The translations under genes were made by a program, and so were the position numbers. From positions 62,001 through 126,000 of the forward strand of contig JANXCF010000002.1 in NCBI GenBank assembly GCA_025059995.1: 64,000 nucleotides of DNA, in the 5' to 3' direction. The DNA is from Leptospiraceae bacterium (lineage in GTDB: Bacteria > Spirochaetota > Leptospiria > Leptospirales > Leptonemataceae). Of the stretch, positions 40,242 to 51,191 are shown piece by piece. Below the pieces are notes generated by a model. It saw nothing but the letters and a program-made list of their open reading frames with translations. It had not been told where the DNA came from and did not search any database. Position 1 is the stretch's first letter. Every line of letters begins with the position of its first letter.

Positions 40242-40634
40242 TCAAGTTACGTCTTTCCAATCCTCTCCATAATGAAAGGTGATCTCACAACCAGGATGGA
40301 TAGTTTTGATGGCATATAACTTATTCCCGCGAAATTCTGCATTGGGATTGGAAGAATGATTCAAATATCGGAGTTCGTTCTTCCCATCAATGAGTTTCCA
40401 ACCACCATGCTCTTGTTGCACCCAAAGCACGTAGGTATCATTCTCTAATACAATCACCCCTTCGTAAGTTCCAATATATTCGTTTTTGCGTATCTTTCTT
40501 TTGGCAAATACTCCAAGACCATGGATAGGACTTTTATCCACGTAGACTTTTTTCTTTAGTGATGCTTCAGATCTCTTTGACGGTCGAAATTCTTCTTCTC
40601 GATAGTATTCTTTTTTTTTCGATTTGTTTTTCAT
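40242..40634 (-). CDS. SET-domain protein
   Basis: 130 residues. After a basic N-terminal stretch the SET fold shows HGLGVFAKRKIRKNEYI, LIDGKNELRYLNHSSNPNAE and ITFHYGED, corresponding to the SAM-binding G-x-G and NHS motifs. There is no post-SET Cys cluster. Bacterial SET proteins may methylate Lys of ribosomal or other proteins. It starts eight bases after the fliY stop, on the same transcript. A second SET protein occurs at 49.9-50.8 kb. Confidence 0.85.
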   Translation of the reverse strand: MKNKSKKKEYYREEEFRPSKRSEASLKKKVYVDKSPIHGLGVFAKRKIRKNEYIGTYEGVIVLENDTYVLWVQQEHGGWKLIDGKNELRYLNHSSNPNAEFRGNKLYAIKTIHPGCEITFHYGEDWKDVT

Positions 40635-49845: not shown

Positions 49846-49872
49846 AAAAAAAACGCCCTATGGGCGTTTTTA
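49846..49872. terminator. Bidirectional intrinsic terminator
   Basis: AAAAACGCCC and GGGCGTTTTT are perfect inverted repeats around TAT, flanked by A-rich and T-rich runs. It can therefore end transcripts of the 49338 gene on the plus strand and the SET-fusion gene on the minus strand; the stop of the latter (49870-49872) lies in it. Confidence 0.85.
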
Positions 49873-50769
49873 GTGCCGTAAGTAAATTTTGCAGTGATAG
49901 TCTTTGGCTTTGAAGAAGTTTTTTGAATATTCTATCACTTCTTTTGGATCATAGTAGGCACAACTGAAGATGTCTAAGTATACGCGGTTTGTTAGGTTTG
50001 CGAAGTGTCCAGAGACTAGGGACGTTTCAATCAATTGAACTAGCGAATACCCAGCGACTCGTTCGTCTTCTCCAAAGTGAACTATGATGGGTTCACCAAA
50101 TCTTTTGACTTTGATTTTCTCACATAACTCTATTGTGTATTGATAGATGGCATCTCTATCCCGAATGAGCTCAGGATCACAATCATGAAGATCCAACGCT
50201 GTCACTAACCCCCAGGCTCCTGTTTGTTCAAATTGGAGTTTGCTGGCTATGGTCTCTGGCTTGATGTTCAATTTTCTTTTGATCCAGCTACTGATGTGGT
50301 TTTCATATTTTTTTTGAATTTCAGGTAAGAAAATGTCTGTTCCATGAATTACTTTCCTACATGTTGGAGATTTGCATTCACAGACAAAACTTTGTTCATT
50401 CAAAAAGATGGTGGCGTAGTCGATCGTTATCTCTTCATCGGGTAAAATATCTCGCAATGCAACGATGGTAAGGTCTCCATCTATTCCTGCATTTGGCTCA
50501 CAAGAGTGGTTAATGTAAAAAAGAGCTGGGATTTCGTAGAAGCTTTCCGGACCAATTAAGATTTCTTCATCAATGGGAATCAAAAAAGATTGTTCTTCTT
50601 TGCTGAGATTTTGAACCTCCTGCTGAGAATAAAATCTGCCGGTAAGAACGCCAATGGTTGTGCCCTTCTTGATGTAGCTATTCGAAAACAAACCCGTCTT
50701 GTGTATGGGTGAAGGACGTAGATCCACATCGACAAAAGTATATTTCAAAGAAGTCATAGTGCGAGTCAT
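49870..50769 (-). CDS. SET domain fused to S-adenosylmethionine decarboxylase-like domain
   Basis: 299 residues. Residues 15-125 are a SET domain: KTGLFSNSYIKKGTTIG, INHSCEPNA at 86-94 and ITIDYA. A post-SET Cys cluster follows (Cys130, Cys132, Cys137). Residues 185-299 resemble SpeD: HFGEDERVAGYSLVQLIETS, SGHFANLTN with His255, and YLDIFSC with Cys270. At the pyruvoyl position of SpeD (E-S-H) this reads E-T-S, so self-cleavage is uncertain. It overlaps speD by four bases. AdoMetDC homologues repurposed as ornithine or arginine decarboxylases are known. Function here is unknown. Confidence 0.85.
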   Translation of the reverse strand: MTRTMTSLKYTFVDVDLRPSPIHKTGLFSNSYIKKGTTIGVLTGRFYSQQEVQNLSKEEQSFLIPIDEEILIGPESFYEIPALFYINHSCEPNAGIDGDLTIVALRDILPDEEITIDYATIFLNEQSFVCECKSPTCRKVIHGTDIFLPEIQKKYENHISSWIKRKLNIKPETIASKLQFEQTGAWGLVTALDLHDCDPELIRDRDAIYQYTIELCEKIKVKRFGEPIIVHFGEDERVAGYSLVQLIETSLVSGHFANLTNRVYLDIFSCAYYDPKEVIEYSKNFFKAKDYHCKIYLRH

Positions 50770-51191
50770 TTCTTCCCTCCTAACATGAGTTCTTTCTCGA
50801 ATTCGTAATCTTTTACTTCGAGATACTTTCTTTTCGCTGGATTCATGATTCCTCTTTCCATGTATTTAACGATCATTTCCTTGGGTAAGAACACATTTTT
50901 TATATGTTCCAGCGCTCTATCTATGTCCATGTTCAGATTGCAAGTGTATAAATCCAAAGCCGCATAACCCAGCTCAGGCCATGTATGGATGCTAAGATGA
51001 GACTCTGCAATCACCACCACTCCTGAGACACCTTGCGGGGAAAATTTGTGGAACTTGCTACTAATGATGGTTGCGCCTGCGATGTCAGCTGAGTAATTTA
51101 AGGCATTCTCGATCTCGGGAAGGTTATCCAATACGGAACTGTTACACCCATACAACTCAATGATGTAGTGGATACCTAGGGGATCTTCCAT
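50766..51191 (-). CDS. speD: S-adenosylmethionine decarboxylase proenzyme
   Basis: 141 residues. IAESHLSIHTWPE contains the cleavage site Glu63-Ser64 that yields the pyruvoyl group; His69 and Cys84 are the other catalytic residues, as in the Thermotoga enzyme. The protein is about 15-20 residues longer than minimal bacterial SpeD at the C-terminus (MERGIMNPAKRK). It makes decarboxylated AdoMet for spermidine. AAGGAGGT lies eight bases before ATG 51191, and an out-of-frame ATG four bases closer opens a 12-codon peptide frame. speE is not in the window. Confidence 0.95.
   Translation of the reverse strand: MEDPLGIHYIIELYGCNSSVLDNLPEIENALNYSADIAGATIISSKFHKFSPQGVSGVVVIAESHLSIHTWPELGYAALDLYTCNLNMDIDRALEHIKNVFLPKEMIVKYMERGIMNPAKRKYLEVKDYEFEKELMLGGKK

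Follow-up and report, generated by a model that had tools for sequence, protein, structure and literature searches.

Fusion of a SET domain to a SpeD-like domain next to speD

The locus analyzed here raises the question of what a SET domain does when it is joined, in a single bacterial gene, to a SpeD-like domain beside speD, and of what that SpeD-like domain decarboxylates. Such a gene had been described in an earlier note on the window, i.e., the whole stretch of 64,000 nucleotides that was analyzed, and the fusion proved to be real. The region 49870-50769(-) is a single uninterrupted ORF of 299 codons with an ATG start, and both domains score above the Pfam cut-offs (SET, residues 26-118, E 1e-13, 52 bits with a cut-off of 22.4; AdoMet_dc, residues 192-298, E 2.1e-20, 73.5 bits with a cut-off of 25). 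The 5' neighbour of the fusion, speD (50766-51191(-), 141 aa), matches TIGR03330 (2.7e-39, 134 bits, cut-off 75.65), and the reported overlap with an orthodox speD was confirmed: the ATG of the fusion overlaps the speD stop by 4 bases (ATGA, 50766-50769(-)), with AGGAGG located 5' of the ATG, so that the two genes are probably translationally coupled. Directly 3' of the fusion stop, a terminator-like hairpin, AAACGCCC-ATA-GGGCGTTT, followed by a T run can be seen in the sequence at 49846-49869(-). This hairpin had no entry in the consensus scan, perhaps because A-T pairing consumes the T run. The features of the locus are the following:

50766..51191, minus strand: speD, orthodox class 1b S-adenosylmethionine decarboxylase, 141 aa (TIGR03330; ESH core, S64/H69/C84)
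49870..50769, minus strand: SET-SpeDC fusion gene, 299 aa (Pfam; same fusion in genomes of the family and in L. interrogans)
50335..50730, minus strand: SET domain and post-SET, residues 14-145, with NHSCEPN at 87-93 and EEITIDY at 112-118 (Pfam, NSD1/MLL1 fold match, invariant residues)
50356..50382, minus strand: post-SET Cys cluster C130, C132, C137, residues 130-138 (sequence, conservation)
50218..50334, minus strand: helical linker, residues 146-184 (AF2: short helices, lower confidence at about 161-180)
49873..50217, minus strand: SpeDC domain, residues 185-299, predicted pyruvoyl-dependent L-ornithine decarboxylase (Pfam, diagnostic residues, tree, fold)
50020..50028, minus strand: self-processing site E248-T249-S250, with Ser250 as the predicted pyruvoyl precursor (spacing to His255/Cys270 as in SpeD)

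Within the window's family, the full fusion is continuous in 15 of 22 genomes and is thus no assembly error; wherever the neighbourhood was read, it is located directly downstream of speD. The AlphaFold2 model, built from an alignment of 27 relatives, has a mean pLDDT of 86 and a pTM of 0.56, the latter as expected for two domains connected by a loose hinge.

The SpeD-like half belongs with pyruvoyl ornithine decarboxylases

According to Li et al. (2023, J Biol Chem, PMC10407285), certain paralogues of AdoMetDC, termed SpeDC, decarboxylate L-ornithine by means of a pyruvoyl group; they are marked by a Gln, a Thr, a Phe and a Tyr of the central region, in addition to the self-processing Ser, His and Cys, and Spirochaetota have been singled out as a SpeDC-rich phylum. 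The core of the fusion, QLIETSLVSGHFANLTNRVYLDIFSC, contains the full diagnostic set (Gln245, Thr249, Phe256 and Tyr264), which we placed by our own reading of the published text and not from the logo figure. The self-processing/catalytic triad is complete as well: His255 and Cys270 had already been noticed, and Ser250 precedes them by 5 and 20 residues, respectively, a spacing identical to that of S64-H69-C84 in the adjacent SpeD and of S63, H68 and C83 in T. maritima SpeD (PMC10407285). Because the spacing of Ser250 equals that of SpeD, 'ETS' has one residue more ahead of its serine, and the half should undergo processing. The normal core of SpeDC reads 'ETS'; its description in the earlier note as E-T-S in place of E-S-H was a one-residue alignment slip, Ser250 being the counterpart of the pyruvoyl serine.

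A tree of 63 domains groups the C-terminal halves of the fusions (100/100) with SpeDC and with the C-terminal halves of Desulfobacterales SpeD-SpeDC proteins, apart from SpeD. The half from the window is 53-60% identical to the SpeDC of speD-speDC-speE operons within the phylum; with the second domain of a Desulfotignum SpeD-SpeDC it shares 49% identity across 149 residues. In this genus, the C-terminal half of such a protein has been demonstrated to be an ornithine decarboxylase (PMC10407285). The S79/S229 spacing reported for D. phosphitoxidans was also applied to relatives to locate the cleaved residue; most of these proteins have one additional residue. The predicted structure of the half also folds like AdoMetDC, as had been proposed (Foldseek of the AF2 model against T. 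maritima AdoMetDC 1vr7, TM 0.86 over the target, rmsd 1.5 A).

We therefore assign the SpeD-like half, with high confidence, to SpeDC, a known kind of enzyme, with L-ornithine as the inferred substrate. The suggestion that it is an AdoMetDC paralogue of the ornithine or arginine decarboxylase sort was thus borne out. Pyruvoyl formation and substrate had both been left open; the substrate is not wide open, given that both the four SpeDC residues and the position in the tree favour L-ornithine, which also makes it doubtful that the C-terminal half shares in AdoMet-derived chemistry, as had been supposed for both halves. The fusion resembles the SpeDC proteins of Li et al. (PMC10407285) in the diagnostic residues, in the triad and its spacing, in the SpeD fold and in adjoining speD and, in relatives, speE, and differs from them by its N-terminal SET domain, a domain absent from the text of that paper. 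In D. phosphitoxidans SpeD-SpeDC (PMC10407285), SpeDC is likewise the C-terminal half of a fusion in a speD-speE context; however, the partner half there is SpeD rather than SET, whereas in the window speD is a separate, overlapping gene.

A candidate source of putrescine

In most other families of the phylum whose locus was read, SpeDC is a free gene of ~140 codons within a speD-speDC-speE operon, whereas in the window's family the speD-fusion pair stands alone, with speE located elsewhere; in the window's genome, speE is distant from the pair (C4:58344, TIGR00417 3e-99). This genome carries only two AdoMet_dc genes, and its sole PF02784 protein is LysA. Family searches yielded no PF01276 decarboxylase above the cut-off, no member of the arginase/agmatinase family and no agmatine deiminase. 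In the genome as it stands, which is 95.8% complete and leaves room for a missing gene, the fusion is the only putrescine-making candidate that we found. Since the genome encodes SpeD and SpeE and these family searches revealed no further ornithine or arginine decarboxylase and no agmatinase, the SpeDC half probably supplies putrescine.

The SET half resembles protein lysine methyltransferases

The solved folds nearest to the SET half, by sequence and by Foldseek of the model, are the histone lysine methyltransferases NSD1, MLL1 and ASH1L. With these class V enzymes it shares the SET fold, the NHSCxPN and EExTxDY motifs and the post-SET CxCx4C; the Cys cluster reported earlier, Cys130, Cys132 and Cys137 together with Cys90 of NHSC, is as described. 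Unlike them, the SET of the window is bacterial and joined to a decarboxylase, and its GxG motif reads KxG. This substitution of the first Gly by Lys (HKTG) is confined to the window copy, whereas the relatives have HGxG or similar; with this change, and with the faster evolution of the SET half described below, activity of this particular SET is not assured.

Thirteen residues, H88, C90, P92, N93, E112, E113, T115, D117, Y118, C130, C132, C137 and R138, are invariant in the 13 fusions of the window's family, and N87 and S89 are kept in all but one of them. The NG86 dN/dS of the SET half ranges from 0.03 to 0.14 in the family, although dS is saturated in some pairs. The predicted catalytic and zinc residues are thus kept under purifying selection in this family. 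The SET half nevertheless diverges faster than the SpeDC half, with 60, 39 and 37% identity to the window as against 93, 81 and 76%. The favoured assignment of the SET half is a predicted protein lysine methyltransferase tethered to a decarboxylase. A second, smaller SET protein is also encoded in the window (40242-40634(-), 130 aa, NHSSNPN, no post-SET), next to genes that by eye are RtcB-like and flagellar switch protein-like (FliN/FliY type).

The fusion in other spirochaetes

Full fusions were also found in metagenome-assembled genomes named as Leptospiraceae, Leptospirales and other Spirochaetia, and in the sister family in G004, G040 and probably G080, where the contig ends. A scan of 84,980 species genomes, using exact peptide patterns of the window protein that distant fusions may escape, recovered full fusions only in Spirochaetota. 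An origin as a phage- or virus-borne gene was considered and dismissed: phages gave no match to the fusion, and viral contigs of IMG/VR matched the SET half only. The presence of the fusion in close relatives agrees with the earlier proposal; in less close relatives, however, SpeDC is a free gene. One genus of the sister family (G029) likewise carries a free SpeDC, which is sister to the fused SpeDCs in the tree.

In L. interrogans, the gene order is speD, fusion (WP_000054152.1, L174:5974-6840), speE. The 350-kb record in question is filed as a plasmid; we take it to be chromosome II. Although this protein has the same architecture as that of the window, its SET half has lost NHSC, the catalytic Tyr and the post-SET. 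In L. interrogans, G004, G040 and G080 alike, these elements are altered or gone, yet the domain stays in place, with a common SPxHDDG-like motif. Conversely, G187, a genome only 78% complete, encodes the SET alone, the SpeDC half being lost, and contains a gene of the agmatine deiminase family. Given G187 and the Leptospira-type fusions, the SET can persist without the decarboxylase, and the decarboxylase without predicted SET catalysis. Catalysis would hence be dispensable in Leptospira and its relatives, where the SET remains fused without its catalytic residues, and the free SpeDC of less close relatives, together with this decayed SET, implies that methylation is no general partner of SpeDC.

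Comparison with BurB and the SET/SpeD-like gene pairs

Among bacterial entries of the PDB, the SET half matches BurB best (phmmer E 6e-6); BurB is a SET-fold S-methyltransferase of free methionine (PMC12542666). In an 81-domain SET tree, BurB groups with the SETs of SET/SpeD-like gene pairs (100/98) and the fusion SETs fall outside; the fusion SETs also lack the BurB stretch TED.L.R.FECHCG, with Arg133 and His138, in place of which the window has YATIFLNEQSFVCECK. Identification of the SET half as BurB was rejected on the basis of this tree position and missing motif. Also discarded was the idea that BurI is a SpeD homologue, making BurB-BurI the two-gene form of the fusion, given that BurI resembles a PLP diaminopimelate-type decarboxylase. 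The likeness to BurB/MSMT of DMSP synthesis thus consists of the SET fold, the post-SET and the metabolic context, while the clade is separate and the partner of BurB is not SpeD-like.

Two further families of the phylum contain a SpeD-like gene with the core VTSAITIH that is immediately followed by the gene for a SET closely related to BurB (phmmer 1.8e-32; L034:4616-5526, L035-L042). Plasmid p7 of Rhizobium bangladeshense carries an asparagine-synthase-like gene, a BurB-like SET gene and a SpeD-like gene in a row (L175:5730-7642), the pair being in the order SET, SpeD-like. In G192, G154, G066 and G094, the VTSAITIH gene is the only AdoMet_dc gene found and therefore does not serve SpeD/SpeE there. 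Judging from neighbourhood and homology, the VTSAITIH protein is a candidate pyruvoyl S-methylmethionine decarboxylase, and the gene pairs may lead from methionine via S-methylmethionine to 3-dimethylsulfoniopropylamine, the pyruvoyl enzyme replacing the PLP enzyme BurI. The pairs in spirochaetes, whose SpeD-like member is a third paralogue besides SpeD and SpeDC and some of which occur without orthodox SpeD, would accordingly represent a candidate new route from methionine. A broader generalization, namely, that SET and a SpeD-type decarboxylase recurrently form a two-step enzyme for small molecules, in which methylation of an amino acid or polyamine by the SET is combined with decarboxylation by the pyruvoyl part, appears quite unlikely to us; if true, the fusion and, separately, the BurB-type pairs would yield a new methylated amine, e.g., 3-dimethylsulfoniopropylamine or N-methylated putrescine.

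Several further arrangements of SET and SpeD-like genes were observed. In one spirochaete family, a free SET gene and an arginase-family (SpeB-like) gene converge tail to tail in several genomes (L191, L193 and L195; close to each other also in L196 and L198), which may be mere synteny. Spirochaetes also contain tandem pairs of SET genes from two different clades (L190, L212, L213 and L214) and a fused SET-SET protein (L186:1474-2562). A SpeDC-like paralogue without the processing His and Cys (VENSCIAG core; L181:1477-1875, L182:1195-1617) is perhaps a dead regulatory partner.

Proposed mechanism and alternatives

As a whole explanation, we consider it reasonably probable that the gene encodes a two-domain enzyme, a SpeDC ornithine decarboxylase with an intact AdoMet-dependent SET methyltransferase held beside it. 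The proenzyme would cut itself between Thr249 and Ser250 into a 28.5 kDa chain with the SET and a 6.0 kDa pyruvoyl-headed chain, and the SpeDC half would convert L-ornithine to putrescine. The coupled speD would provide decarboxylated AdoMet, which the product of the distant speE would join with putrescine to form spermidine. In the window's family, the SET half would most likely act as a lysine N-methyltransferase on a protein, possibly on polyamine enzymes or on the fusion itself. As BurB shows, a SET fold can act on a small molecule too, and the fusion SET may do so.

The altered SETs of Leptospira and its relatives, which stay fused and share the SPxHDDG-like motif after losing the catalytic and zinc residues, could instead mean that the SET half is structural or senses AdoMet, tuning or holding together the ornithine decarboxylase in response to the supply of AdoMet, and has become purely structural in Leptospira. 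AdoMet is indeed the substrate of the coupled SpeD, and one Gly of GxG is missing from the window copy. We regard this explanation as rather unlikely, considering that in the window's family the catalytic residues, Tyr118 among them, and the zinc cysteines are all kept under purifying selection, and that G187 retains the SET after loss of SpeDC. Also unlikely, and slightly more so, is that the SET half methylates a small molecule (methionine, ornithine or a polyamine) in series with SpeDC, which would decarboxylate the substrate or the product of this step, e.g., S-methylmethionine to 3-dimethylsulfoniopropylamine, or act in a route to N-methylated putrescine. Precedents exist in the activity of BurB on free methionine (PMC12542666), in the BurB-clade SETs of the gene pairs described above, which adjoin a SpeD-like paralogue both in two further families of the phylum and on the Rhizobium plasmid, and in a Spartina ornithine decarboxylase that turned into an S-methylmethionine decarboxylase (PMC11464771). 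Other bacterial SETs are fused to metabolic enzymes, namely, to a cyclodipeptide synthase in Moranbacteria (L082:2007-2900) and to a D-Ala-D-Ala-ligase-like protein in Verrucomicrobia (L080:3431-4846). Against such a role, the fusion SET lies outside the BurB clade and is devoid of its motif, the SET structures closest to it belong to protein methyltransferases, its partner half is an ornithine-type SpeDC, and no other source of putrescine was found in the genome.

Alternatively, the C-terminal half would be either another AdoMet decarboxylase or an inactive, prozyme-like regulatory paralogue. It has the Pfam AdoMet_dc domain and is coupled to speD, and a trypanosome AdoMetDC is activated by a dead paralogue (PMC5201418). 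However, the half scores far below the AdoMetDC equivalog cut-off (TIGR03330, 25.7 bits, cut-off 75.65), its core is ETS..H without WPE, as opposed to ESH..H.WPE in SpeD, and it keeps the three processing/catalytic residues and the SpeDC diagnostics and falls in the SpeDC clade (100/100). A second AdoMetDC was rejected on these grounds, and we consider the alternative as a whole very improbable. The explanation that we prefer thus remains the ornithine decarboxylase with a SET methyltransferase beside it.

Significance

The SET-SpeDC architecture is described in none of the literature searched, which comprised open-licence papers only; within the literature found, it is the first SET domain joined to a polyamine decarboxylase. 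The decarboxylase half is already known as SpeDC, but the joined architecture is new, present in databases and probably mis-annotated. The label of L. interrogans WP_000054152.1, 'S-adenosylmethionine decarboxylase', is probably wrong, the protein being likely an ornithine decarboxylase, and the mis-annotation hides the likely putrescine source of Leptospira. Kept across a bacterial family and decayed yet still attached in Leptospira, the fusion offers a clean case for asking what bacterial SET domains target and whether methylation is tied to polyamine synthesis.
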